The notes under the pieces: model-generated
What the model saw: the letters and a program-made list of their open reading frames with translations, nothing else
Told to the model about the DNA's origin: nothing
The model's database searches: none
Shown: piece by piece, positions 4,290 through 50,460 of the stretch
Position numbering within the stretch: position 1 is the stretch's first letter
Layout of the letters: every line of letters begins with the position of its first letter
DNA from: Pelagibius litoralis
Lineage (GTDB): Bacteria; Pseudomonadota; Alphaproteobacteria; Kiloniellales; Kiloniellaceae
DNA: 64,000 nucleotides
NCBI RefSeq assembly: GCF_011683915.1
Contig: NZ_JAAQPH010000004.1
Span: 186,001 to 250,000, forward strand
Direction: 5' to 3'
Made by a program: the position numbers and the translations under genes

Positions 4290-5809
4290 GAGTACGCGCA
4301 CAAGTCGGCATGGTGCTGAACCTCGACAAATGCATCGGGTGTCACACCTGCTCGGTCACCTGCAAGAATGTCTGGACGAGCCGTGAAGGCGTCGAATACG
4401 CCTGGTTCAACAACGTCGAGACCAAACCCGGCATGGGTTATCCAACCGACTGGGAGAACCAGGCGCGCTGGAACGGCGGCTGGGAGCGGACGAAGTCCGG
4501 CAAGCTGCAGCCCAAGCAGGGGTCGAAGTGGCGGATACTGGCGAACATCTTCGCCAACCCCGACCTTCCCGAGATCGACGACTATTACGAGCCTTTCGAT
4601 TTCGATTACGACCACCTCAAATCAGCGCCGGAGATGGCGGCCTTCCCGACCGCGCGGCCACGCTCCAAGATCACCGGTGAGCGCATGGAGAAGATCGAGA
4701 AAGGCCCGAACTGGGAAGAGATTCTGGGTGGGGAATTCTCCAAACGCAGCCAGGACTACAACTTCGACGGCGTGCAGAAGGAGATCTACGGGGAATACGA
4801 GAATACATTCATGATGTATCTCCCCCGGCTCTGCGAGCACTGCCTGAACCCGGCCTGCGCCGCATCCTGCCCATCAGGCGCGATCTACAAGCGCGAGGAA
4901 GACGGCATCGTCCTGATCGACCAGGAGAAGTGCCGCGGCTGGCGCATGTGCGTCAGTGGCTGTCCCTACAAGAAGGTCTACTACAACTGGTCCACGGGCA
5001 AATCCGAGAAATGCACACTGTGTTATCCGCGGATCGAATCCGGTAACCCGACCGTCTGTTCGGAAACCTGCGTCGGCCGTATCCGCTATCTGGGCGTGAT
5101 GCTCTATGACGCCGACAAGATCGAGGCGGCGGCGAACGCTGAAAAGACGACCGATCTCTATGATGCGCAGTTGGACGTGTTCCTCGACCCGCAGGACCCC
5201 GCGGTGATCGAGGCCGCAAGGGCCGACGGCATCCCCGAGGACTGGATCAAGGCGGCGCAGGAAAGCCCGATCTGGAAGATGGCGATGGAGTGGAAGGTGG
5301 CCTTCCCCCTTCATCCCGAGTACCGGACGCTGCCCATGGTCTGGTACATCCCGCCGCTCAGCCCCATCCAGAACGCCGCCCAGGCGGGGGCGATCGGCAT
5401 GGACGGTGCGATGCCCGACGTGCGCAGCCTGCGCATACCGGTGAAGTATCTCGCCAACATGCTGACGGCGGGTGACGAGGAACCGGTCGTCCAGGCGCTC
5501 GAGCGGATGCTCGCGATGCGTTCCTACATGCGCTCGAAAACCGTCGAGGGCGTGATTGACGAAGGTATCGCATCGCGTGTCGGGCTGAGCGGCCGGATGA
5601 TCGAGGATATGTACAAGATCATGGCGATCGCCGACTACGAGGACCGCTTCGTGATCCCCACCACGCACCGCGAGGAGGTCGAGGACGCTTACGACCTGCG
5701 CGGCGGCTGCGGCTTCACCGACTCCAACGGCTGCTCGGGCGGGATCAGCAAGGGCAATCTCTTCGGCGGCAAGAAACGCTCGCTGAAAATGCCGACGGAG
5801 GTGATGTGA
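4286..5809 (+). CDS. narH: Respiratory nitrate reductase beta subunit (iron-sulfur electron transfer)
   Basis: This 507-residue ferredoxin-like subunit passes electrons from NarI haems to NarG. Cluster motifs in order are CIGCHTCSVTC near the N terminus, CEHCLNPACAASCP, CRGWRMCVSGCP, and CTLCYP with a later CSETC. The tryptophan in CRGWRMC replaces a cysteine, the known signature of the [3Fe-4S] centre in NarH. I chose the ATG that overlaps the narG stop. It begins MRVRAQVGMVLNLDKC, which matches the family N terminus, whereas an in-frame start 39 bp upstream would lie inside narG. The stop codon overlaps the narJ start by one base. Confidence 0.98.
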   Translation: MRVRAQVGMVLNLDKCIGCHTCSVTCKNVWTSREGVEYAWFNNVETKPGMGYPTDWENQARWNGGWERTKSGKLQPKQGSKWRILANIFANPDLPEIDDYYEPFDFDYDHLKSAPEMAAFPTARPRSKITGERMEKIEKGPNWEEILGGEFSKRSQDYNFDGVQKEIYGEYENTFMMYLPRLCEHCLNPACAASCPSGAIYKREEDGIVLIDQEKCRGWRMCVSGCPYKKVYYNWSTGKSEKCTLCYPRIESGNPTVCSETCVGRIRYLGVMLYDADKIEAAANAEKTTDLYDAQLDVFLDPQDPAVIEAARADGIPEDWIKAAQESPIWKMAMEWKVAFPLHPEYRTLPMVWYIPPLSPIQNAAQAGAIGMDGAMPDVRSLRIPVKYLANMLTAGDEEPVVQALERMLAMRSYMRSKTVEGVIDEGIASRVGLSGRMIEDMYKIMAIADYEDRFVIPTTHREEVEDAYDLRGGCGFTDSNGCSGGISKGNLFGGKKRSLKMPTEVM

Positions 5810-6519
5810 TGGACCGCACGGTAAAAGCCCTCTCGCTGATCCTCAGTTATCCGACGCGCGCGTTGCAGGCGGCGATGCCGGAGATCGGGGGCGTTCTCGC
5901 CGCCGACACCCGGCTTACCGCAGCAACTCGCAGGGCGCTGCGCCCGCTGGTCGAAGAACTGGCCGGCCGCGATATCTACGACCTCGAAGAACGCTTCGTG
6001 CTGCTCTTCGACCGCTCGCGCAGCCTGTCTCTCAACCTCTTCGAGCATGTCCATGGCGAAAGCCGCGACCGGGGCGGCGCCATGGTCAGTCTGGTGGAGA
6101 CCTATCGCGCGGGTGGTTTCGAGCCCGCCACCTCCGAACTGCCCGACCATCTGCCGGTACTCCTGGAGTTCCTGTCCACGCAGCCAGCGTCTGAGATGCA
6201 GGAGACCCTGGCGAACGCGGCCCACATCTTCGAGGCCCTGAATACCCGGCTGATCCGGCGCGAGAGCCATTACAGCGCCGTTTTTTCCGCCCTGTTGCAG
6301 CTCTCCGGCGTGTCGGCCGACACCGAGGCCGTGGCCGAGCTCCTGGAGCAGCCCGAGGACGACCCCGGCGACCTCGCCGCGCTCGACGCGGTCTGGGAGG
6401 AGAGCCAGGTCACCTTCGGCCCCGACCCGAACGCCGGCTGTCCGCAGGTGCACGAGATGCTGTCGCGCATGGACGCGCCCACCACCCCTAATTCGGCCCG
6501 AGACACCGCGGCCAAGTGA
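5809..6519 (+). CDS. narJ: Nitrate reductase delta subunit, NarG assembly chaperone
   Basis: This 236-residue protein is a TorD/NarJ-family chaperone. It holds apo-NarGH for molybdenum cofactor and FS0 insertion and is not part of the final enzyme. The conserved blocks LILSYPT near the N terminus, LEERFVLLFDRSRSLSLNLFEHVHGESRDRG, and LPVLLEFLS are clear. The ATG overlaps the narH stop (TGATG); a GTG three bases upstream is in frame but less likely. It sits between narH and narI, the standard order. Confidence 0.96.
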   Translation: MDRTVKALSLILSYPTRALQAAMPEIGGVLAADTRLTAATRRALRPLVEELAGRDIYDLEERFVLLFDRSRSLSLNLFEHVHGESRDRGGAMVSLVETYRAGGFEPATSELPDHLPVLLEFLSTQPASEMQETLANAAHIFEALNTRLIRRESHYSAVFSALLQLSGVSADTEAVAELLEQPEDDPGDLAALDAVWEESQVTFGPDPNAGCPQVHEMLSRMDAPTTPNSARDTAAK

Positions 6520-6533
6520 CGGAGGACTGAGAC

Positions 6534-7307
6534 ATGAGTATCGACTTCTTCATCTTCGGCATCATGCCCTACGTCGCGCTGACCGTGCTGATCGTCGGCT
6601 CGATCGCACGATACGAGCGCGATCCCTTTACCTGGAAATCCTCGTCGAGCCAGCTTTTGCGGCGCAAACAACTGATGTGGGGCTCGGTCCTGTTCCACGT
6701 CGGCATCATCGTCGTCTTCTTCGGCCATCTGGTCGGCCTCTTCACGCCGATCTGGGTTCTCGATGTCATCGGCATCAGCTACGGATTCAAGCAACTCATG
6801 GCCATCGTTGTCGGCGGCATCGCCGGGGTCGCGGCGTTGATCGGCGCCAGCATGCTGCTGCACCGTCGCCTGTCCGACCCGCGTATCCGCAAGACTTCCA
6901 GTTTCGCCGATATCGGCATCCTCTCCTTGATCTGGCTGCAGCTTGTGGTCGGCCTCGGCACGATCTTCCTGTCGATGAAGCATCTCGACGGCGGCGAGAT
7001 GGTGCGTTTCATGACCTGGGCTCAAAGCGTTATGGGTCTGCAGCTCAATGCCTGGCTTGAAGTGGCCAATGTGCACGCCCTGTTCAAGTTCCACATCTTC
7101 CTCGGCCTGCTGATCGTGATCCTGTTCCCCTTCACCCGGCTGGTGCACATGCTGTCGGCGCCGGTGCGTTATCTCTGGCGTCCGGGCTACCAAGTGGTGC
7201 GGTCGCGGCGCCAGACGCCCCTATCGGGCCGGCGGGGTGCCGCCGCGTCAGCCCCAACACGCGCCGCGCAGCCTTCTGCCGGCGGTATCGCCAAACCAGC
7301 GGAGTGA
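6534..7307 (+). CDS. narI: Respiratory nitrate reductase gamma subunit (cytochrome b)
   Basis: This 257-residue membrane subunit oxidises quinol and passes electrons through two b-haems to NarH. Five hydrophobic segments are visible. The four haem-ligand histidines fall at 55, 65, 187 and 205, essentially the spacing of enterobacterial NarI (FHVGII, FFGHLVG, FKFHIFLG, RLVHML). The ORF runs about 30 residues past the usual end in an Arg/Ala/Pro-rich tail (after QVVRSRRQTP) of unknown role. A GGAGGA-type ribosome site precedes the ATG. The stop is 5 bp before the next gene's ATG. Confidence 0.97.
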   Translation: MSIDFFIFGIMPYVALTVLIVGSIARYERDPFTWKSSSSQLLRRKQLMWGSVLFHVGIIVVFFGHLVGLFTPIWVLDVIGISYGFKQLMAIVVGGIAGVAALIGASMLLHRRLSDPRIRKTSSFADIGILSLIWLQLVVGLGTIFLSMKHLDGGEMVRFMTWAQSVMGLQLNAWLEVANVHALFKFHIFLGLLIVILFPFTRLVHMLSAPVRYLWRPGYQVVRSRRQTPLSGRRGAAASAPTRAAQPSAGGIAKPAE

Positions 7308-7312
7308 CGGCT

Positions 7313-8116
7313 ATGAGCACATCGTTGTTTCCCGATCTTGTCGTGAACGGCGAGGTTATCCCGCAAGCGGAATTGGACGCGGAAACCCAGAACCACCCCG
7401 CACCCAAGGGCAAGCCGTTGATCGCCCGGCGCAAGGCCGCCAATGCACTGGCCGTCCGAACCCTTCTGTTGCAGGAAGCGCGGCGGCGCGGATTACAGGC
7501 TGAACCCCGCGAGGTGGCGCCAGAGCGGTTCGAGACGGAGGAGGAGGCCCTGATCCGGGGCCTTCTCGACCAGGCGATCCCGGGAACCTCACCGACCGAC
7601 GCGCAGGTTCACGCCGAATGGGCGCGCGACCCGTCGCGCTTTCGCAGCCCGCCGCTCTGGGAGGTTTCGCACATCCTCTGCGCCTGCGATCCCCGCGATG
7701 ACGCGGCCCGACAAGCCGCCCAGGCACGGGCAGCGGCGTTGAGTGGGGAGGCTCTGGGCGATCCCCGCGGCTTTGCCGCCTTGGCAAGGCGCGCCAGCGA
7801 CTGCGGCTCCAAGGCGAACGGCGGCGCTCTCGGACAGCTCGGCCCCGGCGATACCGTGCTGGAGTTCGAGACCGCCCTGCGCAAGCTGTCGGAGGGCAAG
7901 ATCACACCCGAACCGGTGCTCAGCCGCCACGGTTGGCATGTTATCCGGCTGGACGCGGTGGCCCCGGGTCAGACGCTGCCCTTCGAGAGCGTCAAGGATC
8001 AGATCGGCGCCGCTCTCGAAAGAGCGGCCTGGGCCGAAGCAGCCCGGGATTTCATCGCCGAACTTGTCGATTCCGCCGAGATATCCGGTGCGAACCTCCG
8101 AACTGCCCAGCACTGA
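7313..8116 (+). CDS. PpiC-type peptidyl-prolyl cis-trans isomerase of the nar operon
   Basis: This 267-residue protein carries a parvulin (PpiC/NifM-like) domain at about residues 115-225. LWEVSHILCACDP starts the domain, FAALARRASDC and GGALGQLGPGDTVLEFE form its centre, and SRHGWHVIRLD closes it. The N-terminal 100 residues are a helical NifM/SurA-like region (VVNGEVIPQAELDAETQNH). No signal peptide is apparent, so a cytoplasmic folding helper for Nar subunits is likely. That role is inferred from operon position, since parvulins of this type recur behind narI in many proteobacteria. I chose the ATG 5 bp after the narI stop; an in-frame GTG lies inside narI. Confidence 0.9.
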   Translation: MSTSLFPDLVVNGEVIPQAELDAETQNHPAPKGKPLIARRKAANALAVRTLLLQEARRRGLQAEPREVAPERFETEEEALIRGLLDQAIPGTSPTDAQVHAEWARDPSRFRSPPLWEVSHILCACDPRDDAARQAAQARAAALSGEALGDPRGFAALARRASDCGSKANGGALGQLGPGDTVLEFETALRKLSEGKITPEPVLSRHGWHVIRLDAVAPGQTLPFESVKDQIGAALERAAWAEAARDFIAELVDSAEISGANLRTAQH

Positions 8117-10762: not shown

Positions 10763-11953
10763 TCACAGCCGTTGAAGCTGTGGTTCGAGGGCGGCAAGGC
10801 TTTCCAGCGTGTTGGCCGGGGCGAAGAGGTCGAGATAGGGCAGGGCCGCCGCCATGCCTGCCGCAACCGGGGCGTAGTCCTTCCAGCCTTTCAGGGGATT
10901 GAGCCAGACGATGCGGCAGCCGCGCTTTTTCAGTCGTTGCAGGGCGGTGGCGATCATCGCCGGCGGATCGGTGTCGTAGCCGTCGGAGAGGATGACCACC
11001 ACGCTGCGCCCGTTCACCCGCTGCGCGGCATACTGTGCATTGAATTGGGCGAGATTGGCGCCGATGCGGGTGCCGCCGCCGAAGCCGTCGGCGAGCAGGG
11101 AGAGGCGGTTCACGGCGCGCAGGCTGTCGTGGTCGCGCAGGGCGTCGCTGATCGGCACCAGCCGGGTGTGGAAGAGATAGGCGTCGGTGCGCTGATCGGC
11201 GCTCATCAGGCCTTTCAGGAAGGCGAGGAAGACCCGCGCGTAGACTGTCATGGAGCCGGAGACATCGAGCAGGGCCACCAGATGCACCGGCCGGTCCGGG
11301 CGGCGCCGTTTCAGCAGGCGGATGGGCTCGCCGCCGGCGCTGACGCTCGCCCTGGCGATGCGCCGAAGGTCCAGCTGCGCCCCGCGCCTTGCCGCCTTGC
11401 GGCGGCGGGAGCGGCGGTCGCGGATGTTCTTGCCGAAGCGCTCGGCAACCCGCTCGGCGCGCTTCAGGTCTTCCGGCATCATCAGCTCGCGCAGATCGAC
11501 CTTTTCGATGTTGCGCAGGCGTGAGGCGACCAGTTTTCCGTCACCGCTGTGGCTGAACCCATCGGAATCATCGCCACCCTCGGGCTGGTCGAGCGCGCCC
11601 TTTTCGCCGCTGCGGGATTCCCGGTCGACGCCGGGCCCGAAGGTCGGCACCTGGTGCTTCGTCCGGCGTTCGTCCCGGGTGGCGAAGCCTTGACGCTCCC
11701 GCCCGCTGTTCAGCCAGTAGGCCTCGAAGAGGTCGTCGAAGCGCTCGAAACGCTCGGCATCGCCGGCACAGATGGCTTTCAGGGCCAGCCGCGCCTCCGC
11801 CGCATCCCAGGCCTTGATGGTAGTGAGCGCCTTCAGCGCGATTCCTGTTTCAGGGGGCCCGACCGGCAAGCCATTGGCGCGCAGATGGGCCATGAAGTCG
11901 GCCATCCGCTCTGTCGTGCCGGCGGCCCGGGCGGGAAAGCGGGTCACCTGCAT
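10763..11953 (-). CDS. coxE: CoxE, von Willebrand factor A-domain protein
   Basis: This 396-residue CoxE-type protein carries a C-terminal VWA domain. The MIDAS metal-site motif is visible in LLDVSGSMTVY, with a later conserved ILSDGYDTDP. The middle is basic (RRSRRRKAARRGAQLDLRR). With the AAA+ protein CoxD it forms the chaperone pair that, in O. carboxidovorans, inserts S and Cu to build the [CuSMoO2] site; that role is known from the family, not shown here. The ATG overlaps the coxD stop (TGATG); a GTG three bases upstream is also in frame. Confidence 0.92.
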   Translation of the reverse strand: MQVTRFPARAAGTTERMADFMAHLRANGLPVGPPETGIALKALTTIKAWDAAEARLALKAICAGDAERFERFDDLFEAYWLNSGRERQGFATRDERRTKHQVPTFGPGVDRESRSGEKGALDQPEGGDDSDGFSHSGDGKLVASRLRNIEKVDLRELMMPEDLKRAERVAERFGKNIRDRRSRRRKAARRGAQLDLRRIARASVSAGGEPIRLLKRRRPDRPVHLVALLDVSGSMTVYARVFLAFLKGLMSADQRTDAYLFHTRLVPISDALRDHDSLRAVNRLSLLADGFGGGTRIGANLAQFNAQYAAQRVNGRSVVVILSDGYDTDPPAMIATALQRLKKRGCRIVWLNPLKGWKDYAPVAAGMAAALPYLDLFAPANTLESLAALEPQLQRL

Positions 11954-12834
11954 CACGCGGCCTTTCCGGCCAGGCGCTGGGCGACTTCCGGCGGTATCGC
12001 GGCGCAGTCCGCCTGAGTTTTCAGCAGGCAGACCAGCGACGCCTGCAGAGCCACGGGGTCTTCGGCCAGGTCGTTGATGCCCAGGCCGCTCAAGGCCGCC
12101 GCCCAGTCCAGGGTTTCCGCAACGCCCGGCTTTTTCTCCAGGTCCTCTTTGCGCAGCGCTTGAACAAAGCCGACGATCTGTTCGGCCAGCCGCGTTTCGA
12201 TGCCGGGGTTGCGCTTGTTGAGGATGGCAAGTTCCGAGGCTCTGTCCGGGTAATCGACGAAAGAATAGATGCAGCGCCGCCGCAGGGCATCGGAGAGATC
12301 GCGCGCGCCGTTCGCGGTCAGGACGACATGGGGCCGCGTCGTTGCTTCGATGGTGCCCAGCTCGGGAATCGAAATCTGAAAGTCGGAGAGCACTTCCAGG
12401 AGATAGGCCTCGAACTCCTCATCCGCCCGGTCGATTTCGTCGATCAGCAGAACCGGCGCAGTCTCCTGCTGGATCGCCTCAAGCAGGGGCCGGCGCAGCA
12501 GGAACTTCTCGGAGAAGATCCGCTCTTCGATTTCCTCCGAGGAGGCGTCTTCGTTGGCCGCCGCCCGGATCGACAGCAGTTGGCGTTGATAGTTCCATTC
12601 ATAGATTGCCGCCGCCGCATCCAGGCCTTCGTAGCACTGCAGTCGGATAAGGCGGGTGTCCTTCAGCTCGGCGAGGGTCTTGGCGACCTGGGTCTTGCCG
12701 ACGCCGGCCGCGCCCTCCAGCAGCAGGGGGCGGCCCAGCGCCAGGGAAAGATGCAGCGCCATGGCGAGATCGTCGGAGGCGACATAGCCGGTTGTCGCGA
12801 GATCGGATTTCAGCTCGGTCCAGGTCATGGTCAT
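11953..12834 (-). CDS. coxD: CoxD, MoxR-type AAA+ ATPase
   Basis: This protein of about 293 residues is a MoxR/CoxD AAA+ ATPase. Walker A is GAAGVGKTQ, Walker B is VLLIDEIDRAD, and sensor 1 is VVLTANGARDL. CoxD in O. carboxidovorans is a membrane-associated chaperone that partly unfolds apo-CO dehydrogenase so its copper-sulfur-molybdenum site can be built. Two ATGs lie six bases apart (MTMTWTEL); the longer frame adds 14 residues that run into the gap after coxL. It lies between coxL and coxE in canonical order. Confidence 0.93.
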   Translation of the reverse strand: MTMTWTELKSDLATTGYVASDDLAMALHLSLALGRPLLLEGAAGVGKTQVAKTLAELKDTRLIRLQCYEGLDAAAAIYEWNYQRQLLSIRAAANEDASSEEIEERIFSEKFLLRRPLLEAIQQETAPVLLIDEIDRADEEFEAYLLEVLSDFQISIPELGTIEATTRPHVVLTANGARDLSDALRRRCIYSFVDYPDRASELAILNKRNPGIETRLAEQIVGFVQALRKEDLEKKPGVAETLDWAAALSGLGINDLAEDPVALQASLVCLLKTQADCAAIPPEVAQRLAGKAA

Positions 12835-12876
12835 CGAAAGGGGCGCGGGAAAAATTTCCCCGCGCCCGCTCCCCAC

Positions 12877-15297
12877 TTACGCATGCAGCCCGAGATCGTT
12901 GGCGGTCTTCCAGATCCGCCAGTGATCGTGGGGCATTTGCGTGTGGGTCAGGCCGAAGGCCCGGAAGGCGTCGTTCACCGCGTTGGAGAAACAGGGTACC
13001 CCGCCGACGTTCGGGCTCTCGCCGACGCCCTTGGCCCCGATGGGATGATGCGGGCTGGGCGTTTCCGTGTAGTCGGTGGTGTAGTGGGGCGTCTCCCAGG
13101 CCGTCGGCAGGAAGAAGTCCATCAGGGTCGCGGTCTTGACGTTGCCGATCTCGTCGTAGGCGATTTCCTGGCCCATGGCGATGGCCAGGGCCTCGGTCAG
13201 GCCGCCGTGCACCTGCCCTTCGATGATCATCGGGTTGATCCGCGTTCCGCAGTCGTCAAGTGCGTAGAACTGGCGGACAACGGTTTCACCGGTATCGACG
13301 TCGATGTCCAGCACGCAGATATAGGCGCCGAAGGGATAGGTCATGTTGGGCGGATCGTAGTAGCTGACCGCCTCCAGCCCCGGCTCGACGCCGGGGATCG
13401 CCTGGTTGTAGGCGGCGTAGGCAATTTCCTTCATGGTCTTGAAGCGCTCCGGCGCGCCCTTCACCGCGAAGCGGTCGACATCCCACTCGACGTCGTTGTC
13501 ATGCACCTCCAGCAGGTAGGCGGCGATCATCTGCGCCTTGGCGCGGATCTTCCGCCCGGCGAGCGCCGTCGCCGCACCGGCCACCGGCGTGGAGCGCGAG
13601 CCGTAGGTGCCCAGGCCGTAAGGCGCGGTATCGGTGTCGCCTTCTTCGATGGTGATGTCGTCGGCGGGAATACCGGTCTCCGTCGCCAGGATCTGGGCGA
13701 AGGTCGTCGCATGCCCCTGGCCCTGGGAGATGGTGCCGAGGCGGGCAATGGCCGAGCCGGTCGGGTGGATGCGGATCTCGCAGGAATCGAACATGCCCAT
13801 GCCCAGGATGTCGCAGTTCTTCACCGGCCCGGCCCCGACGATCTCGGTGAAGTGGGTGAGGCCGATGCCCATCAGCTTGCGGGTCTCGCCGCGCTTGAAG
13901 GCTTCCAGCCGCTCGGCCTGTTCCCGCCGCAGTCCGTCGTAGTCGACGGCCTTCAGGGCCTTGTCCCAGGCGGTGTGGTAGTCGCCGGAATCGTACTCCC
14001 AGCCCAGGGCCGAGTGGTAGGGGAATTGGTCCTTCCTGATGAAGTTCTTGGCCCGCAGCTCGGCGGCGTCCATGCCCAGCTTGATGGCCAGGACCTCGAT
14101 CATCCGCTCGATGAAATAGGCGGCCTCGGTCACGCGGAACGAGCAGCGGTAGGCAACCCCGCCCGGCGCCTTGTTGGTGTAGATTCCGTCGACGGCCAGA
14201 TAGGCGGTTGGGATGTCATAGGAACCGGTACAGATGTTCATGAAGCCGGCCGGGAACTTGGTCGGATCGGCACAGGCATCGAAAGCGCCGTGGTCCGCCG
14301 TGGTGTGGCACCAGAGGCCGGTGATCCTGCCGTCCGAAGTCGCGGCGATTTTGCCCTTCATCCAGTAGTCGCGGGCGAAGGCCGTGGACATGAGGTTTTC
14401 CATGCGGTCCTCAATCCACTTCACCGGCTTGCCGGTGACGATGGAGGCGACGATGGAACAGACATAGCCGGGATAGACCCCGACCTTGTTGCCGAAGCCG
14501 CCGCCGATATCCGGCGAGATGATGCGGATGTTGTGCTCGGCGATGCCCGACAGCAGCGAGGCCACGGTGCGCACCACGTGCGGCGCCTGGAAGGTGCCCC
14601 AGACGGTCAGCTTGCCGTTCACCTTGTCCATGGAGGCGACGCAGCCGCAGGTCTCCAGCGGGCAGGGGTGGGTGCGGTGATAGTAGACCATCTCCTCGGC
14701 CACCACCGGCGCCTCGGCGATGACCGCCTCGGTCGCCGCCTTGTCGCCCTGTTCCCAGGTGAAGATGTGGTTGGGGTGACGCCGCGGGCCGTGGGCGCCC
14801 TCCAGATCGTCGGCGATGTCTTCGCGCAGGATCGGCGCGTCCGGCAGTTCGGCCTTGAAGGGATCGACCAACACCGGCAGTTCCTCGTAGTCGACCTCGA
14901 CCAGTTCCACGGCGTCGGCGGCGATGTAGCGGTCCTCCGCCACCACGAAGGCGACTTCCTGGCCCTGGAACAGCACTTTGCCGTCGGCCAGCACCATCTG
15001 CTTGTCGCCGGCCAGGGTCGGCATCCAATGGAGGCTGAGCGGCTCCAGATCCTTGGCGGTCAGCACGGCGACGACGCCGGGCAGGGCGAGGGCCGCCTCG
15101 GCATTGATCGACTTCACCCGCGCATGGGCATAGGGCGAGCGCACGAAATCGCCGAACAGCATGCCGGGCTGTTGGATATCGTCGACGTAGTTGCCTTTGC
15201 CCTGGGTGAAGCGCACGTCCTCGACGCGCTTGCGGGCGGTGCCCAGGCCTTTCAGGGCGGCGGAGCGTTCGCTTTTCGGGGGGCTCATCTCGTTCAT
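12877..15297 (-). CDS. coxL: Aerobic CO dehydrogenase large subunit, form I (molybdenum catalytic subunit)
   Basis: This 806-residue subunit oxidises CO to CO2 at a bimetallic Cu-S-Mo site bound to molybdopterin cytosine dinucleotide. The form I active-site loop AYRCSFR is present, with the copper-binding cysteine at residue 385, close to Cys388 of O. carboxidovorans. Form II proteins instead have AYRGAGR. Other Mo-cofactor contacts are GGGFGNK and the C-terminal [10 protein letters not shown] containing the catalytic glutamate. The ATG overlaps the coxS stop (ATGA), and the next residues ([11 protein letters not shown]) fit the family, so the longer frame into coxS was discarded. Confidence 0.98.
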
Positions 15298-15785
15298 TGG
15301 GCTGCCTCCTTGGCGGCGTTCATCTCGGCGGCGGCGGCCAGGATCGCCTTGACGATGTTCTGATAGCCGGTGCAGCGGCAGAGGTTGCCCGCCATGCCGA
15401 AGCGCACGTCTTCCTCGCTGGGATTCGGATTTTCCAGCAGCAGGCGATGGGCGCGGATGATCATCCCCGGCGTACAGAATCCGCACTGCAGGCCGTGGTG
15501 CTCACGGAACATCTCCTGCAGCACATGCAGGTTGTCCGGATCGCCCAATCCTTCGACGGTGGTGATGTCGGCGCCCTCGGCCTGGGCGGCGAAGACCGTG
15601 CAGGACTTCACCGACTTGCCGTCCATATCCACGGTGCAGGCGCCGCAGTGCGACGTCTCGCAGCCGATGTGCGGGCCTTTGATGCCAAGCCTCTCGCGCA
15701 GGACATGGATCAGCAGTTCACGGGGCTCGGCAAGGGTTTCGACTTCCTGGCCGTTTACGGTCATTTTCAGATGTGTCTTTGCCAT
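15294..15785 (-). CDS. coxS: Aerobic CO dehydrogenase small iron-sulfur subunit
   Basis: This 163-residue subunit carries two [2Fe-2S] clusters. The N-terminal plant-ferredoxin motif is CETSHCGAC followed by VKSC. The second, helical cluster motif is CGFCTPGM, then NLCRCTGY. It relays electrons from CoxL to the FAD of CoxM. It lies 15 bp after coxM, with the coxL start overlapping its stop. Confidence 0.97.
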
Positions 15786-44224: not shown

Positions 44225-44337
44225 TCTGCGCGATCTTGTTTCGTCATTAAAACCCTGGATTGCTAATTAATTTTTCTCTAATATATGTGCCATAGTTTGT
44301 TCGCTTATCAGCTGAAGACCAGTCGGATGTGACAACG

Positions 44338-45015
44338 ATGGCGGAGCCGCAAGCTCTTGAAGCGGCGCGGTGGTTCCTGGCGCTGTTTTTCCCCGGGGTC
44401 GCGCTTTTCTATATCGTCAGGCTGACGGCGCGGCGGCGCCGGCTCGGACACTCTGCCGTCTGGCATGGCGTCAGGGGCAGCCGCCACTGGTGGCTTGCCA
44501 AAACCTTCGTCGTGTTCCGCAGTGTCATTACCCTGGCCATGCTTGCCCGCGCGTTCTGGCCCGGATTGGACAGCTATCTGCTGGCCTGCGGGTTTCTGAT
44601 GACATCGACGATCGTCTTTGCCGGCCTGATCGTCATGATCACCGGTTTTTCGTCGGCGATCGCGCTGCACTTTTCCATGGGCCGGGCCTGGCGCTCCGGC
44701 CTGCCGGCCAAGGGCGGGGTGCCTGGGCTGATCACCGGCGGCCCCTTTGCCTGGAGCCGCAACCCCATGTTTCTGGCCATACAGCTGGCCCAGTTCGGGT
44801 TCTTCCTGTCCTTTCCAAGCGGCTTCACCCTGATCTGCCTGCTTGTCGGGATGCTGGTCCTGCACCTGCAGGTCCGCCTGGAGGAGGCCCATCTTCTGGC
44901 CGCCCATGGCCAGGTCTATCGGGACTACTGCAAAAGCACGGCCCGCTGGTTTGCGCTTGGCCGCCTGCCCTTCGCCGCCAGAGCAGACACGACCTCCAGC
45001 ATCGTCACTCACTAG
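44338..45015 (+). CDS. PEMT/ICMT-like membrane methyltransferase
   Basis: This protein of about 225 residues (GTG 44329 gives three more) has four to five membrane segments. The conserved C-terminal methyltransferase module shows GGPFAWSRNPMFLAIQLA, LEEAHLLAAHGQVYRDYCKS and ARWFALG, matching the phospholipid methyltransferase/isoprenylcysteine methyltransferase family. The first 100 residues lack the long N-terminal region of ICMT. It probably methylates a lipid or protein cysteine at the membrane. It has its own AT-rich upstream region, so it may not be co-transcribed with the FAD-GcvT gene. Confidence 0.75.
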   Translation: MAEPQALEAARWFLALFFPGVALFYIVRLTARRRRLGHSAVWHGVRGSRHWWLAKTFVVFRSVITLAMLARAFWPGLDSYLLACGFLMTSTIVFAGLIVMITGFSSAIALHFSMGRAWRSGLPAKGGVPGLITGGPFAWSRNPMFLAIQLAQFGFFLSFPSGFTLICLLVGMLVLHLQVRLEEAHLLAAHGQVYRDYCKSTARWFALGRLPFAARADTTSSIVTH

Positions 45016-45017
45016 GG

Positions 45018-45160
45018 TCGGATCATGTTTCGACGGAACCACTTTGTGGTTGCGCCAAAACATGTGAATCCGATCGACATCGAACAGTTAGGGCAGATTC
45101 ACCCGGTCCCCAGATATCTCAGGGGATCGCCTCCGGCGATTCCATCCGACCGGGATCTGC
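45018..45160. repeat. Multi-hairpin intergenic repeat region
   Basis: Element 1 (45018-45073) is an imperfect inverted repeat, with TCGGATCATGTTT facing AAACATGTGAATCCGA, and an inner perfect stem AACCAC-TTT-GTGGTT (45037-45051). Element 2 (45093-45160) has arms GCAGATTCACCCGGTC and GACCGGGATCTGC and inner small stems (GATATC, GCC-TCC-GGC near 45128-45136). The pair resembles REP/BIME-type elements. It follows the methyltransferase stop directly. Confidence 0.6.
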
Positions 45161-45457
45161 TCTAGGCTTTCGTTGGGCAGCTGTTCCTAATTGGATCGCC
45201 GGGCAGTCGTGGCCGGGTAGATCGTGATTAACGATCAAATGAAGACGCGTCCGCTGACCCTTTTTTGTCACGGAATCGCCCGCTAACAGCGTTATATTTG
45301 GGCGAATTATTGGTGGCGCTAATAAATTGCCTCAATAAAGCCTATTCGATAGATTTGGTGTGGATATAGCGATTGCGGCAATTCAGTTGACGGTTTTGTT
45401 CAGTTTCTAGGACAAAAGCGCAGCCTGGGAGGCCGTGAAGCTTAAAAGGGGGAGAGC
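45161..45457. other. AT-rich upstream region of the DUF2589 cluster
   Basis: Nearly 300 bp with no gene, markedly AT-richer than its flanks. A TCGCCC/GGGCGA stem (45276-45281 and 45300-45305) and a weaker TTATT/AATAA stem follow one another. TTGACG near 45387 is a possible -35 with no clear -10. AAGGGGGAGAG just before the first ATG is a good ribosome site. It is the obvious promoter region for the cluster. Confidence 0.4.
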
Positions 45458-46069
45458 ATGGCAGTAGCAGGTGAACTACAAGCATTGCCGTTCGGATCGT
45501 TGATCGGCGGTCCCTTGGATGCAGCCATCGAGGCACAGGCCAAGGCTGCCGTGTCCTCGGTGAAATTCATCAAGGCAATCGGCTTCAACGATGACGGCTC
45601 GGTTCAGAACGTCACTTTCACGGCCAAGAAGGGTGAACAGGAAACGGAGATCACCGTACCCCTGCTGACCATTGTGCCGATTCCCTTCATCCGCATCGAT
45701 GAGATGACCATCGACTTCAAGGCCAACATCTCGTCCAGCAACGAAAGCGAAGACAAGACGGCCCAGTCCACGGCGAAGAACGCCAAGGTCAGCGCCAGTG
45801 CCCGCTACCTCTTCTTCAAGGCCAACCTGGAAGCCTCGGTCTCCTCCAAAAAAGATTCCGAATCGACCAAGAAATCCAAGTACTCGGTCGAAACCACCAT
45901 CGATGTGCACGTCCATGCGGTGCAGGACGAACTGCCGGCGGGCCTGGCAAAAATGCTGAACATACTGGCCGACACCATTCAGGCACCGCCCGCGGTTACC
46001 GGCCAGCCGGGCAGTGGCGGTGCGGGCGGTGGCGCTGGTGGTGGCGGCGGCGGCAAAGCGGGAAACTGA
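45458..46069 (+). CDS. DUF2589 protein A
   Basis: This 203-residue protein has the DUF2589 pattern: LPFGSLIGGPLDAAIEAQAK, KFIKAIGF, then VPLLTIVPIPFIRIDEMTIDF, and a C-terminal VHAVQDELPAGLAKML. The middle is Ser/Glu/Lys-rich (about 90-140: SSSNESEDKTAQST), predicted as an exposed loop. The tail is a Gly-rich spacer (GGAGGGAGGGGGGK). No signal or membrane segment is seen, so it is probably cytoplasmic. The function of DUF2589 is unknown. It heads a cluster with a second copy 1.1 kb downstream. Confidence 0.85.
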   Translation: MAVAGELQALPFGSLIGGPLDAAIEAQAKAAVSSVKFIKAIGFNDDGSVQNVTFTAKKGEQETEITVPLLTIVPIPFIRIDEMTIDFKANISSSNESEDKTAQSTAKNAKVSASARYLFFKANLEASVSSKKDSESTKKSKYSVETTIDVHVHAVQDELPAGLAKMLNILADTIQAPPAVTGQPGSGGAGGGAGGGGGGKAGN

Positions 46070-46280
46070 TCGCGCTGGGGCCGCCGCAGACGGTTGTTCT
46101 GCCCGGCCGTTCCGGCGCTCTCGCCCGTTTTCGACATGTCCAGACCCGCGTCTGGCGCGGTCTTATGGACTGGCTGACCGGAAGGCGCCAGCCGGCGTGA
46201 GCGGGTTGATCAAAGGTGCAGTGAATCAAGGCCGCCCGGTGAAGGGCGTGATCGCCGAGGGGGAGGCAAAGTAAACAGGG

Positions 46281-47099
46281 ATGGCCGATCTTCAACAGAT
46301 CGTCGGGGCGATCCTTCGGGATCTGGCAAAGGCGCGCTTCAGCGCCGACCTCTACTCGCGCTCGATCGCGCGCTACTACGAAAACGACTATCTGCTGCGC
46401 AAGTTTCCGGTGCCGCGCGCGGACGTGGAAGAGGTCGAGATCGACCTGAAGTTCTCCATCGCCGGGGTGCCGGAAAGCGAGGTGAACAACGAAAGCCAGG
46501 AGGCCAACGCGGCGGTGCTCTTCGAGCGTTCCGTCGAACGGCTGGTCGCCACCTTCCTGGATCTTGCCCGGGCGCGCAACGAGGCCGATGAGACTTTTCG
46601 CGAGACCTGGTGGAAATACCTGACCAAGGGCTTCAACTCCTCGGCCCTGCGCATCGACATGCGTCAGAAGGTGCTGCGCTATTTCATCGAGTCCTACACC
46701 CACATGATCGATGATGACGGCAACTTCGATGCCGGGCTGGCGCTGGCCGAGCTTGAGCGGCCGTTCCGCTGGGCCATGGAGCAATACGCCAAGGACATCT
46801 ACAGCCAGAGCGAAGAGGCAGAGGTGGAGATGAAGCAGGCGCTGCGTGCCCTGATTCAGCCGATCGTCGGCGACAAGGGCATAGCGGACGCGGTCCAGGC
46901 GATGGCCAAGCCGATCAAGACCATCTGGCACGGCAACAGCGATGCCCGTATCGAAATCATGGTGGAGGGTGGCCAGCTATCGCAGTTGAGCGAGGCGGCG
47001 ATCTCCAGCGTGAAGATCAAGGCGGTGGTCCGCAACATGGTCTGGACCGAGGTGAAAGTGGGCGAGCGCACGACGCGCCATGTCCTCACCTCTGAGTAG
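46281..47099 (+). CDS. Uncharacterised protein of the DUF2589 cluster
   Basis: This 272-residue protein is not recognised. It begins with a helix (MADLQQIVGAILRDLAKARF) and then a beta-type segment (FPVPRADVEEVEIDLKFSI). A long predicted all-helical middle follows (about 75-220), rich in Glu/Arg/Trp. The C-terminal strand pairs include IEIMVEGGQLSQL and SVKIKAVVRNMVWTEVKV. There is no membrane segment. It sits between two DUF2589 genes, so it likely belongs to the same complex. Confidence 0.75.
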   Translation: MADLQQIVGAILRDLAKARFSADLYSRSIARYYENDYLLRKFPVPRADVEEVEIDLKFSIAGVPESEVNNESQEANAAVLFERSVERLVATFLDLARARNEADETFRETWWKYLTKGFNSSALRIDMRQKVLRYFIESYTHMIDDDGNFDAGLALAELERPFRWAMEQYAKDIYSQSEEAEVEMKQALRALIQPIVGDKGIADAVQAMAKPIKTIWHGNSDARIEIMVEGGQLSQLSEAAISSVKIKAVVRNMVWTEVKVGERTTRHVLTSE

Positions 47100-47120
47100 G
47101 CCGGGAAAGGAAGGCTGGCG

Positions 47121-47816
47121 ATGTCGGACGACTCATCTGAAAAAGCAGTTGCCACGGATATCGGCGGCGGTGGGCAGCCGCCCACGGATGGCGGGGACGG
47201 CGGCGGCACCACGGCGCCGACGCCGCGCGAGCTGCCCGAACCGCAGTCTTCGGTCCTCTCCCTCGCGCAGCTGATCGGGGCGCCGATCCACGCCCTTGTC
47301 GATGCCGAAGCGCAGTCGGCCATGGCCACCGCGCGCTTCATCCGTTCCGTCGGCTTCACCGGTAACGGCGACGGCATGGGCGACCTGGGTGAGCTGCAGA
47401 TGGCGCGCTTCAAGCGGCGGCATCGCGGTGCCGATGGCAGTGACGAAGAGGTCGAGGTGCAGATCCCGCTGCTTTCCATGCTTCCCATCCCGGCCCTGCA
47501 GATCAAGGATGCGGAACTCGACTACACTGTGAAGATCGTTCAGACCGAGGCCCTGCCGCAGCGCCAGGCCGAGGTTGATCAACTGATGGCCGCCAAGCGC
47601 CAGGGCCCCACGGGCGAGCCGCCGGCGACACTGCGCGCCACCTTCGCGCGCGAGCAAGGCTCCAACGGCCGGCGCTCGGTCGACATGCTGGTCAAGATGA
47701 AGCTTCGGATCGAACAGGCGGATATGCCCGGCGGGTTGGCGCAGCTTCTGGCCCTGGCGTCGGAATCCAGCAGCCAGGATGTCTTGGCGAAGCGCGATGA
47801 AGAAGGCGACGGCTAA
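47121..47816 (+). CDS. DUF2589 protein B
   Basis: This 231-residue protein is a divergent paralog of protein A. After a Gly/Pro-rich N-terminal 40 residues it has SLAQLIGAPIHALVDAEAQ, ARFIRSVGF, VQIPLLSMLPIPALQIKDAE and a C-terminal EQADMPGGLAQLLALA. The shared LIG-P, PLL-x2-(V/L)PIP and (L/M)P-x-GLA-x2-L landmarks are in the same order. The Ser/Lys loop of A is replaced by an acidic/basic insert. It overlaps nothing; the next gene starts 3 bp after its stop. Confidence 0.85.
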   Translation: MSDDSSEKAVATDIGGGGQPPTDGGDGGGTTAPTPRELPEPQSSVLSLAQLIGAPIHALVDAEAQSAMATARFIRSVGFTGNGDGMGDLGELQMARFKRRHRGADGSDEEVEVQIPLLSMLPIPALQIKDAELDYTVKIVQTEALPQRQAEVDQLMAAKRQGPTGEPPATLRATFAREQGSNGRRSVDMLVKMKLRIEQADMPGGLAQLLALASESSSQDVLAKRDEEGDG

Positions 47817-47819
47817 GTC

Positions 47820-48098
47820 ATGACCGCAACCCAGCCCGGGAGAATTCCCTGCCCTGCCTGCAGCCAGCCGCTGGCCTTGCCGATTGAGGCGGTGCTGACC
47901 GGCCAGGCGATCGCCTGTGCCGGCTGCGGTCTTGAATTGACGGCACAGCGCGAAACCTCCCATGAGGCCCTGAATGCCCTGGGCCGCTGGTATGAGGAAA
48001 CGGCTGAGGCGCGGACCACAGCGGCCTCCGGGCAGGCCTCTGCCGCCGCGGGACAAACTGCAAAGGCGAGCCGCCGGGTGACGCGGCCGCGCCGCTGA
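47820..48098 (+). CDS. Small zinc-ribbon protein
   Basis: This 92-residue protein has two CxxC knuckles 18 residues apart (CPAC and CAGC), predicting a zinc ribbon. An amphipathic helix follows (EALNALGRWYEETAEAR) and then a basic Ala/Ser-rich tail (ASRRVTRPRR), which could contact nucleic acid or a membrane. The start ATG is 3 bp after the previous stop. It may be an adaptor of the cluster; the role is unknown. Confidence 0.7.
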   Translation: MTATQPGRIPCPACSQPLALPIEAVLTGQAIACAGCGLELTAQRETSHEALNALGRWYEETAEARTTAASGQASAAAGQTAKASRRVTRPRR

Positions 48099-48106
48099 CA
48101 ACACAA

Positions 48107-49153
48107 ATGCCGACGTACCAAAGCTGGTTCCGGCCCTGGCTCGACGATCCCGGGCCCTGGGCCGTCTGGCAACTGACGCCGGACGAAGAGACGGCAGCGG
48201 CGGTGATGCTCCGGGCGGCGGCGGGGTCGGCCTGTGCCCGATTACGGGCTGACTACGGCAGGCAGGCCAATGTCTTCGGGGGCAACGATCTGGTGACGCA
48301 GCTCGCCACCACCGCCTGCGCCGGGGACAGGCTCTTTCGGATCGCCCAGGCCGTCGCAGCGGTCGATTACTACCGCGCGCGCGTCACCGCGCGGCGACCG
48401 GAACCCGGCGGCGACACCAATCCGGTGAACCGGGTCTGCTGGTCCAGGCTGCATCCCTTCCTGATGGCGCGGTTGACGCAGTGCCTTCAGACCAATGCCG
48501 TGCAGTCGCTGGTCTGCTGTGCGATTTCCAGCCGGGTGGCGGACAAGTGGATGCCGGCGGCGGAAATGAGCCGGCAGTTGGAGCATGAACTGGTCGACAG
48601 CGGCTTGTTCTCCAGCGTCGAAGTTTCCCTCGACCTGCGGCTGCCGGTGCCGGGCGGCCGAATCTGGTTGGCTGCCGAGACGGAAAAGACCGTTGCGGCG
48701 ATCAGGAAGAGCCTGGCGCGACGCCAACCCGTCCTGGTGGAGATCCTGCGCGACCCGGCGACCTCTCCGGCGGCGGCGCAGATCGTTGTCGTTTACCGCC
48801 TGGAAGAGCCGGCGGACAACAAGGCCATGCTGACCTACTACGATCCGGCCCTGGCCGCTGCACCCGGCAGCCTGCGGATCGCCAAGACGGATCACGGTTT
48901 CGTCTTTCATGATATGCCGGGCCAGGTTGCACCCGATAGCGAAGCCCCTGAAAGCGAAGACCAGGCCGCAGCGCAGGGGCTTCATCTGCTGGCGGTGCCG
49001 CCGGCCCCGCCGCCGCTGTTCGGTGCCAGGCGATGGCTGCGCTGGTGCCTGCCCTGGGGCCTCTGCTGGTATCTGAAGCGCCGCTGGCTGGTCTGGTGTC
49101 ATCGCAAGCGGGAACAGGCGGTCAGCGGCTTGCCGTCGGGCGGGCCTCCCTGA
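48107..49153 (+). CDS. 348-residue protein of unknown function with Trp/Cys-rich tail
   Basis: I do not recognise this protein. The N-terminal part (to about 165) is helical, with many cysteines (CWSRLHPFLMARLTQC, LVCCAISS). The middle (about 195-265) has strand-type blocks QPVLVEILRDP, QIVVVYRLEE and LTYYDPAL that loosely recall papain/C39-like folds, but the usual catalytic histidine is not evident. The C terminus is a Trp/Arg/Cys-rich stretch (RRWLRWCLPWGLCWYLKRRW) likely to bind membrane. Its 3' end overlaps the convergent small gene by 32 bp. Confidence 0.65.
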   Translation: MPTYQSWFRPWLDDPGPWAVWQLTPDEETAAAVMLRAAAGSACARLRADYGRQANVFGGNDLVTQLATTACAGDRLFRIAQAVAAVDYYRARVTARRPEPGGDTNPVNRVCWSRLHPFLMARLTQCLQTNAVQSLVCCAISSRVADKWMPAAEMSRQLEHELVDSGLFSSVEVSLDLRLPVPGGRIWLAAETEKTVAAIRKSLARRQPVLVEILRDPATSPAAAQIVVVYRLEEPADNKAMLTYYDPALAAAPGSLRIAKTDHGFVFHDMPGQVAPDSEAPESEDQAAAQGLHLLAVPPAPPPLFGARRWLRWCLPWGLCWYLKRRWLVWCHRKREQAVSGLPSGGPP

Positions 49154-49346
49154 TCACCAGAACGCGGATCGGCCCGCTTTCCTTTTGGATCTCCGTCAGC
49201 ACCGCCTGCAGCTCGGGGTTTTCCTCCATATCGGCATAGACGCAGATCGCGTTCTCGGCGCGGCGGATGCCCAGGCCGTGGACCCCCCCGCGCCCGAGGA
49301 AGCGGCCTTTCAGCCGCTCCTTCAACGCTTCCAGACTGTCGTTCAT
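49122..49346 (-). CDS. 74-residue partner of the serine-protease-like protein
   Basis: This small protein (MNDSLEALKERLKGRFLG start) has a core GVHGLGIRRAENAICVYAD that resembles the N-terminal module of the upstream protease (VHAVGVGKK then CVRIYVV). It lies 10 bp after the protease stop on the same strand and is probably translated with it. It could be a stand-alone copy of that module acting as an inhibitor or adaptor; this is inference from the weak similarity. Confidence 0.65.
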   Translation of the reverse strand: MNDSLEALKERLKGRFLGRGGVHGLGIRRAENAICVYADMEENPELQAVLTEIQKESGPIRVLVIREARPTASR

Positions 49347-49356
49347 TCGGTGTTAC

Positions 49357-50460
49357 CTAGATCGGTTCGATGTCGAGGGCTTCCATGACATCATTCATCT
49401 GGTTGGCGATCCCGTAAACCCCGCTTTCCGGGCCGGCGAAGAACAGGCCGACGGCGCGGGCCGCCGCGCGGTTCACGATCAGCGAACCGCTGTCGCCGCC
49501 CAGGCCGATGGCCTGGAAGGGCGGCGTCACCTCGATGCGCAGCTGGTCGTCGAACAGGGCCACGGCGTTGGGGTCGGCCGGGTCCATGCCGACCAGGGCG
49601 TCGTAAGCCTCGTCCGTAATCACGCCCTCGGTATAACCGGTGGTGCGCCCGTGTTTGCGCACCTCCATGCCCTCCACGCCGCGCTCCATGCCTTCCAGGG
49701 CGCCGATGGAGCAGATCGTCGGGCTGCTCTCGATCTCGGGCAGCATCAGGCCGACGGCCGCATCGACCCGGTTCGGCGTCTGCCCGTCGATGACGATCTC
49801 CTGATAGCGCAGCAGCGTTGCGATGCGATCGGCGGCCGTACCGCCGTCGGCGGGCCCGGGCTGGTAGAGGTCGTCGCCGATCTCCGCCCGGTTGGTGTCG
49901 GCGAAGACGTGGTTGTTGCTGAGAGCGAGGATCTGATCCGGATCGTCGCCGGCCAGGGTCGAGCGGCAGAAGCAGGCAAGAGTGCCCGCCGTCACGTCTT
50001 CATGGGCGACGCTGATGCCGGCGACGACGGGGCGTTGTGCCGCCTGGCGGTTGTCGCTGCAGGCTTCCTGTGCCACGTCGATGCTCCTGCGTGTTGTCGC
50101 CCGGGCCGCTTTGGGCGGCGCCTTCTTCACCGCGCTCTGTCCCAGGGCGAAAGCCGGGGCCGACTCGATCACGTCGGTCACGACGCCGTCGATGCGCTGC
50201 GGCAGGTGGTCGCGCGGGGACAGCATCGAGGCGGGCAGCTTCTGCACGACATAGATTCGCACGCAGGTCTCTTTTGTCACGACGCCACCGGTGATCTTCT
50301 TGCCCACGCCGACCGCATGCACGTTACCGCCGGCGGAGGCCATGGCGGAAGAGATGCGTATGCAGCGCCGGGCGACCACCGCGCCGCCGCGCCGGCCGGC
50401 GCGCAGCAATCTTGTGCTGACTGTCTGCTTGGCTTGAAGAAGGTCGGTCGAAATTGGCAT
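49357..50460 (-). CDS. Chymotrypsin-fold serine protease-like protein
   Basis: This 367-residue protein has a likely catalytic triad: His184 (LSNNHVFA), Asp233 (RVDAAVGL) and Ser324 (GLGGDSGSLIV). That arrangement is trypsin-like, close to Nal1-type bacterial peptidases. The first 80 residues form a separate module (GGNVHAVGVGKK, CVRIYVVQKLP) followed by a linker. No clear signal peptide is seen, so it may act in the cytoplasm. It runs convergently towards the DUF2589 genes and divergently from the M20 peptidase gene. Confidence 0.8.
   Translation of the reverse strand: MPISTDLLQAKQTVSTRLLRAGRRGGAVVARRCIRISSAMASAGGNVHAVGVGKKITGGVVTKETCVRIYVVQKLPASMLSPRDHLPQRIDGVVTDVIESAPAFALGQSAVKKAPPKAARATTRRSIDVAQEACSDNRQAAQRPVVAGISVAHEDVTAGTLACFCRSTLAGDDPDQILALSNNHVFADTNRAEIGDDLYQPGPADGGTAADRIATLLRYQEIVIDGQTPNRVDAAVGLMLPEIESSPTICSIGALEGMERGVEGMEVRKHGRTTGYTEGVITDEAYDALVGMDPADPNAVALFDDQLRIEVTPPFQAIGLGGDSGSLIVNRAAARAVGLFFAGPESGVYGIANQMNDVMEALDIEPI

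Follow-up and report, generated by a model that had tools for sequence, protein, structure and literature searches.

The ternary systems of MoxR and von Willebrand factor A (vWA) proteins and those based on effector-associated domains (EADs) draw on exchangeable trypsin-, caspase-, lysozyme- and papain-like and alpha/beta-hydrolase effectors (PMC7159879 and PMC8195603, as far as the accessible portions go), and in the anti-phage nuclease-protease pairs a pool of trypsin-like, caspase-family and metallo-beta-lactamase-fold enzymes has been recruited repeatedly by different cores (PMC12799240, accessible portion). The protein family DUF2589 (PF11655) has a Pfam entry that carries no function; the DUF2589 genes AF0414-AF0417 of Archaeoglobus are higher on lactate, according to the accessible part of a source that names DUF2589 in passing. 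No described system of the kind presented here was found in the literature searched, which comprised no preprints and few subscription papers. We report on a seven-gene cluster in a 64,000-nucleotide stretch of the Pelagibius litoralis genome (contig NZ_JAAQPH010000004.1, positions 186,001 to 250,000), hereafter the window, in whose numbering all positions are given. The cluster pairs a conserved core of DUF2589 proteins with hydrolase genes that are exchanged between genomes, and we read it tentatively, at rather less than an even chance, as a modular system for conflict or self-lysis, its hydrolase effectors being interchangeable and its target the carrier's own cell.

As the initial annotation had described, five genes on one strand face a convergent unit of a protease and a small partner, and the positions of the open reading frames were reproduced. 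The proteins are abbreviated as in the following list.

45016-45457, no strand: AT-rich intergenic region 5′ of the five-gene unit, presumed regulatory (51.4% GC)
45458-46069, plus strand: A (P0001), DUF2589 protein of 203 aa (PF11655, E 1.6e-32)
46281-47099, plus strand: H (P0002), 272 aa, probable divergent DUF2589 relative with a helical insert (remote profile similarity; A-H adjacency)
46557-46928, plus strand: helical insert of H, fast-varying, about residues 93-216 (Pelagibius and Chryseobacterium comparisons)
47121-47816, plus strand: B (P0003), second DUF2589 protein, 231 aa, with a Gly-rich N-terminus (PF11655, E 7.7e-19)
47820-48098, plus strand: Z (P0004), small, two CxxC pairs, zinc-ribbon-like (sequence; sub-threshold zinc-ribbon matches)
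48107-49153, plus strand: T (P0005), 348 aa, with a Trp/Arg-rich C-terminal tail, genus accessory (ortholog distribution)
49122-49346, minus strand: S (P0006), small partner of 74 aa that travels with N (adjoins N in Pelagibius genomes)
49357-50460, minus strand: N (P0007), Nal1-like trypsin-fold protease, proposed exchangeable effector here (sub-threshold NAL1 matches, PHROG 'protease')

The spacing is indeed tight after the first gene, with gaps of 21 (H-B), 3 (B-Z) and 8 nt (Z-T) following one of 211 nt (A-H), and the ends of T and S overlap by 32 nt, tail to tail. The upstream region is AT-rich as had been stated, in comparison with a window-wide GC content of 64.6%; sigma-70-like sites between 44500 and 52000 numbered none on the plus strand and one on the minus strand, the latter equal to the shuffled mean (1.1). 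The gene order A-H-B-Z-T is intact in seven of eight same-genus genomes (own included), and the ratio of nonsynonymous to synonymous substitution rates (dN/dS) ranges from 0.02 to 0.44 over 24 gene-pair comparisons of cluster genes between Pelagibius genomes. Low ratios and kept order together indicate real, maintained genes rather than chance reading frames.

Two members of the core belong to DUF2589 with confidence, A (113.4 bits) and B (69 bits) both exceeding the PF11655 cut-off of 23 bits, and A is the slowest-evolving member of the cluster (dN/dS 0.02-0.16 in the Pelagibius comparisons). H, previously listed as an unknown helical protein, matches no Pfam or NCBIfam family at E 1 and does not reach the PF11655 cut-off; remote profile similarity suggests that it is probably itself a third, divergent DUF2589 relative carrying a helical insert. 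When a profile was built from 84 H proteins with no DUF2589 sequence in the training set, it retrieved DUF2589 proteins with a best E of 2.9e-5, the best reversed sequence in the same search reaching E 0.014 (E-values for a set of about 1500 genes). Alignment of H and DUF2589 by hhalign, over the N-terminal helix and the next strand, gave E 1.5e-4 and probability 52, and probability 34 in profile-profile comparison with other alignments. The AlphaFold2 model of H (predicted local distance difference test, pLDDT, 87.8; predicted TM-score, pTM, 0.59) displays a helix at residues 4-35, a strand at 51-62, a helical part at about 70-218 and final strands, an arrangement that would fit a DUF2589 framework interrupted by an insert. 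The corresponding model of A is weak (pLDDT 60.5, pTM 0.40) and too poor for a fold comparison with H. Neither model has a match with E <0.001 in the PDB, and profile searches of PDB sequences returned nothing convincing. Z features two CxxC pairs, with all its zinc-ribbon matches below cut-off.

Genome and viral scans with a narrow, P0001-like alignment found 80 loci, which for that reason lean towards this branch of DUF2589; genes were called with a home-made finder that overlooked the GH19 gene of locus L052 and, in several loci, Z (L and G numbers denote loci and genomes of our survey). An A gene with room downstream is present in 75 of the 80 loci (four others being contig ends and one without a called A), and H lies directly 3′ of A in 68 of these 75. 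The third gene in the 68 A-H loci encodes a DUF2589 B protein in 27, a helical protein of cluster c2 in 28 and of cluster c39 in six, with six further cases of other or uncalled genes and one contig end. Clusters c2 and c39 are homologous (E 4e-18), and B is substituted by a helical protein in 34/68 loci. Given the A-H adjacency, the core is defined as A-H plus B or its substitute. The "paired paralogs" of the initial annotation thus captured A and B, both of them DUF2589 proteins, and were incomplete as to the probable third relative and the frequent substitution of B. Relatives of Z were detected in 18/80 loci.

According to record titles, hosts of the core include Pelagibius, Crocosphaera, Flavobacterium, Chryseobacterium, Streptomyces, Nocardioides, Cellulomonas, Burkholderia, Tenacibaculum, Fibrobacter, Ignavibacteria and a Methanotrichaceae archaeon. 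Presence is patchy: DUF2589 occurs in 9 of 58 relatives, 5 of 289 class genomes and 9 of 398 phylum genomes, each count including the own genome and the class and phylum sets sharing some genomes. Two matches per genome are usual, with a single one in G356 and two in G574 that are pieces of one frame. Among mobile records, DUF2589 was found in 1 of 50,697 phage records and 5 of 72,556 plasmids, with one locus in viral contigs. On two plasmids, from Vibrio tubiashii and a Deltaproteobacterium (L156, L157), a gene annotated as 'peptidoglycan-binding protein' lies within about 3 kb of the DUF2589 genes; none is listed near DUF2589 in a third plasmid record (L158).

The recurrence that had been proposed as a sign of a system is therefore evident for the 272-aa protein H and not for the 348-aa protein T, which is an accessory of the genus Pelagibius. 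Orthologs of T were found only in the seven core-bearing genomes among the 58 relatives and in the near locus L060, and T is the fastest-evolving whole gene (dN/dS 0.23-0.39). It matches no Pfam or NCBIfam family at E 1 and is not detectably related to c2, c39, c37, H or DUF2589 by profile comparison. The idea, from inspection by eye, that T is a degenerate papain-like protein was dropped, as no Cys or His is invariant in seven aligned orthologs.

Several variants of the DUF2589 neighbourhood may be recorded here. A conserved protein of 88-92 aa (c67; motifs KGxIIG, GEHQ and YHxxFxR by eye) accompanies the DUF2589 pair in the Pseudomonadota loci L049, L051, L052 and L054. A protein of 170-201 aa (c37) stands in the place of Z after B in L073, L076, L080, L088 and L112; the L076 member has sub-threshold matches to MarR/IclR helix-turn-helix domains, and c37 is perhaps a regulator. 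On a Bacteroidales contig (L071:182-9783), seven consecutive frames are DUF2589-like, and one of these forms the C-terminal end of a protein of 1258 aa. A toxin-metallopeptidase fusion was considered for the latter and rejected, the match being below cut-off (E 0.0017) and HExxH absent.

The core is accompanied by hydrolases of many kinds. The following neighbours, assigned from Pfam or PHROG, were picked by eye.

Proteases: Trypsin_2 (L066), NAL1/trypsin-like (L130), Peptidase_C1 (L022, L113), Zincin_1 (L073)
Peptidase_C14: L102, and L069 (three genes away)
M23 (L092), M74 with PG_binding_1 (L076), PG_binding_1 (L079)
With patatin: M15_4 and Patatin (L081), phage lysozyme with M15_3 and Patatin (L062)
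GH19 (L048, L052), GH18 (L068), Amidase_3 (L051), CHAP (L117), endolysin (L053, PHROG only)
Metallo-beta-lactamase with SH3 (L056), DUF922 (L050), metallophosphatase (L127:8315-9490)

GH24 is also among the enzyme families beside the core. Since these neighbours had been chosen by eye, 85 directly adjacent genes were compared with 85 controls drawn at random from genes 5-6 places away, both from 48 loci whose DUF2589 proteins share <70% identity and with proteins >1300 aa excluded. The adjacent genes matched 98 Pfam families and the controls 132, the families with at least two members being given here in full. These are Peptidase_C1 (3), PG_binding_1 (3), CHAP (2) and Trypsin_2 (2) among adjacent genes, and in the control ten families matched twice, namely ABC_tran, Response_reg, two alpha/beta-hydrolase, three AAA, two HTH and one reductase family. 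None of the four repeated adjacent families is among the ten of the control.

Exchange of the enzyme can be followed within Pelagibius itself. A close ortholog of N (77-87% identical) lies beside the core in the own genome, G001, G005 and G006; G002, G003, G004 and G007 possess only paralogs of about 40% identity, elsewhere in the genome. A papain protein, with a GHSAGS motif in its C-terminal half (by eye), is encoded within about 5.5 kb of A in G001, G003, G005 and G007, and a metallo-beta-lactamase-fold protein adjoins T in G002 only. At least one of these three unrelated enzymes is thus found near the core in all seven core-bearing genomes, and none of these orthologs is present in G004, the core-less genome. 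There, the M20-peptidase, substrate-binding and ABC genes located downstream of the cluster in the window are found without core or enzyme, suggesting that the set comes or goes as a unit. The protease, counted with the cluster in the initial annotation, is absent beside the core in three of the seven core-bearing Pelagibius genomes; its role as a core part was rejected, and N is better seen as one of many interchangeable enzymes.

N falls short of the cut-offs of both NAL1 domains, with sub-threshold matches to NAL1_N (19.8 vs 27 bits, E 6.7e-4) and Nal1_C (23.8 vs 26.1 bits, E 2.9e-5). It matches a PHROG 'protease' at 1.6e-49, so relatives of N are carried by phages too. His184, Asp233 and Ser324 are invariant in four aligned homologues and presumably form the catalytic triad, which we assigned by motif. 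S adjoins N in all four Pelagibius genomes having a close N (own included). Loci L130 and L135, which are similar to each other and possibly of one lineage, have a Nal1-like protease with a small partner placed after the core on the core's own strand; L130 (titled Anaerolineae) may be a misbinned contig. Their small partners match the N-terminal domain of the protease (probability 76, E 2.4e-5), and such partners may be free copies of that domain.

Could the protease adjoin the core by chance, and the enzymes elsewhere be coincidence? The loci were first read by eye, the adjacent and control Pfam tallies each list 25 families, and N and S lie here on the strand opposite to the core. We nevertheless give this explanation very little credence, in view of the contrast between adjacent and control families, the co-occurrence of core and enzyme within Pelagibius, and the same-strand order in L130 and L135.

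A second kind of variation lies within H. The H proteins of G003 and G007 are 100% identical over residues 1-92, where the proportions of nonsynonymous (pN) and synonymous (pS) differences are 0.000 and 0.240; their inserts (93-217) are 53% identical (pN 0.299, pS 0.329), and the remainder is 93% identical. The papain proteins of the two genomes are 94% identical, so the divergence of the insert is not accounted for by the enzyme. In Chryseobacterium, the median pN/pS of H (28 pairs passing a pS filter) is 0.26 for the insert and 0.10 and 0.08 for its flanks, compared with 0.06 for the adjacent patatin. Such a pattern would be expected of a recognition surface facing changing demand.

These patterns also bear on the proposal that the DUF2589 proteins are a housekeeping holdase or adaptor, which would keep lytic enzymes inactive until they are deployed in the autolysis, wall remodelling or protein turnover of normal growth. 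Purifying selection on all compared genes agrees with such a role, as does the response of the Archaeoglobus genes to growth substrate in the accessible part of the source; SecB chaperones are among the weak fold matches of A (probability 0.60-0.80, E 0.12-0.38, TM-score 0.23), a lead only. We consider it unlikely all the same, since presence in 9/398 phylum genomes is patchy, core and enzyme are lost or gained as a unit (G004), and exchange of unrelated enzymes together with a fast-varying insert is unusual for housekeeping.

The enzymes share the absence of leader peptides. A hydrophobic N-terminus was found in one of 28 listed enzymes, where it is a glycine-rich patatin motif, compared with 28.8% of 1144 other genes; the 28 were hand-picked and include the L115 and L122 neighbours without a Pfam match, and membrane proteins are part of the background. 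The wall hydrolases are thus like endolysins in being produced in the cytoplasm and depending on help to reach the wall. Such help might be export. The enzymes beside the core span the same range as inter-bacterial effectors (wall hydrolases, proteases, phospholipases), and a complex of A, H and B could release leaderless hydrolases to the outside or deliver them to rivals or prey, the insert of H picking the target. The 27/28 enzymes without a hydrophobic N-terminus fit this proposal, and the variable insert could bind receptors. Yet no family of a delivery apparatus was matched twice in the 85 adjacent genes (direct neighbours only), a same-strand gene within 250 nt after the enzyme, as a possible immunity partner, is present in only 3 of 16 enzyme genes with a family or same-cluster assignment, and the archaeal locus L094 also has A-H. 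An outward weapon is accordingly an improbable explanation in our view, and the scarcity of immunity partners and of delivery families among direct neighbours is what makes us lean towards the own cell rather than rivals as target.

Endolysin-type enzymes also raise the possibility that a phage lysis cassette was captured, with DUF2589 proteins assisting the action of such enzymes. Enzymes of L053 (1.3e-25) and L079 (several) match PHROG endolysins, and the PHROG match of N itself points the same way. Against this, no core protein of the window matches a PHROG or has a holin-like transmembrane segment, DUF2589-like matches are confined to the single phage record and single viral-contig locus noted above, and caspase, patatin and papain are not lysins, which leaves this origin highly unlikely.

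We thus return to the proposal of a conflict or self-lysis system acting on the own cell. Its basis is the conserved core, the enzyme exchange, the missing leader peptides and the variable insert, and from these we infer complex formation, sensing, activation and killing with the own cell as target. In its favour, the pool of effectors overlaps with that of immunity: one adjacent gene matched the PADLOC 'Effector Phospholipase' model (1.6e-61), of the CBASS type, and one a caspase model (3.1e-24). A, H and B, probably three relatives, would form with Z a hetero-oligomeric complex for holding and sensing, with the fast-varying helical insert of H as its recognition surface. The adjacent enzyme, here N and perhaps restrained by S, would be an exchangeable effector kept in the cytoplasm. 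On recognition of a trigger, the complex would release or activate the enzyme, and the freed enzyme could attack proteins, membrane lipids or, after a breach of the membrane, the cell wall. T may bring the complex to the membrane with its Trp/Arg-rich tail, and perhaps help in the breach; the "membrane-seeking" tail of the initial annotation is Trp/Arg-rich, yet forms no transmembrane helix by hydropathy (best 19-residue mean 0.97). The outcome would be death or lysis of the carrier cell. The conflict-like multi-protein system first suggested thus stands in outline, as a core tied to hydrolases across phyla, with T and N not constant members and its function proposed as above.

A number of observations weigh against this proposal. 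A breach is needed for cytoplasmic wall hydrolases to get to the wall, and a simple scan found no clear transmembrane segment in A, H, B, Z or T of the window (best 19-residue hydropathy 0.94-1.50); some DUF2589 protein outside the window reaches 2.51. The link of H to DUF2589 is remote, a single sequence against the H profile giving probability 4.5, and weak constraint may be an alternative cause of the variation in its insert. In several loci no enzyme was recognised: eight tested neighbours have no Pfam match (L046, L065, L071, L099, L115, L122, L123 and L127:13228-15828), nor do those of L115 and L122, the two searched against PHROGs, have a match there. The alpha/beta-hydrolase families matched twice in the control are hydrolases as well. 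The resemblance of S to the N-terminal domain of N is weak (probability 21, E 1.1e-3 over 26 columns), and direct comparison of S with the L130 and L135 partners gave no match (probability 1.2). None of the seven window proteins matched a PADLOC 2.0.0 model at E 1. The adjacent genes are not enriched in matches to defence models: they matched 35 families, singles among the matches listed, and control genes 23, three of them with two members. A link to defence islands found no support.

It is tempting to go one step further and to imagine a device free of nucleoside triphosphatases (NTPases), in which three related proteins of DUF2589 fold would hold and then discharge interchangeable leaderless hydrolases, a hypervariable insert of H serving for recognition, in bacteria and at least one archaeon. 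We regard this more specific claim as doubtful. If true, it would combine sensing, carriage and effector exchange in one small operon. The broader proposal, for its part, would provide a first function for the DUF2589 family, in a system without visible NTPase and with effectors from caspases to lysozymes. The presence in one genus of three unrelated enzymes, one core and a core-less relative, together with the variable insert, renders the choice of effector and target directly testable.

As to the surroundings of the cluster, a PEMT/ICMT-like methyltransferase gene (44329-45015) lies 5′ of the core in several Pelagibius genomes and does not adjoin it in G003 and G007; it is flank and not core. 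Inspection by eye also noted a nitrate-reductase-like operon at the start of the window (549-8116) and, about 30 kb from the core, a gene for a MoxR-like ATPase with its neighbour (10763-15486) beside carbon-monoxide-dehydrogenase-like genes.

The locus can now be set against what has been described. The Pfam entry for DUF2589 includes neither the recurring partner H nor the third gene and exchanged enzymes seen here. Unlike the MoxR-vWA ternary systems, the seven window proteins contain no MoxR ATPase, vWA protein, third component or NTPase by Pfam. The enzymes are separate genes, and of the small adaptor domain that effector and core share in EAD-based systems Pfam showed no sign in the seven proteins, no de novo search for such a domain having been made. 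Judging from the accessible part of PMC12799240, the cluster also differs from the nuclease-protease pairs, in that no Hachiman, AVAST or other PADLOC core is present in the seven proteins, and in that the metallo-beta-lactamase-fold protein (G002) and protease N occur in different Pelagibius genomes. As the cores of these three groups of systems, in so far as the accessible portions of the sources define them, were not found in the seven proteins, we claim only a similar working style and not membership. One adjacent gene resembles the PADLOC effector phospholipase, with no nucleotidyl cyclase among the matches listed and no further search made. With plant NARROW LEAF 1 (NAL1), N shares weak matches to the N- and C-terminal domains and a His-Asp-Ser triad, and differs by its bacterial operon context. 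In L053, L054, L062 and L079 the core is accompanied by leaderless wall hydrolases that are like phage endolysins; unlike phage endolysin modules, the core has no holin, and most core loci are not phage records.

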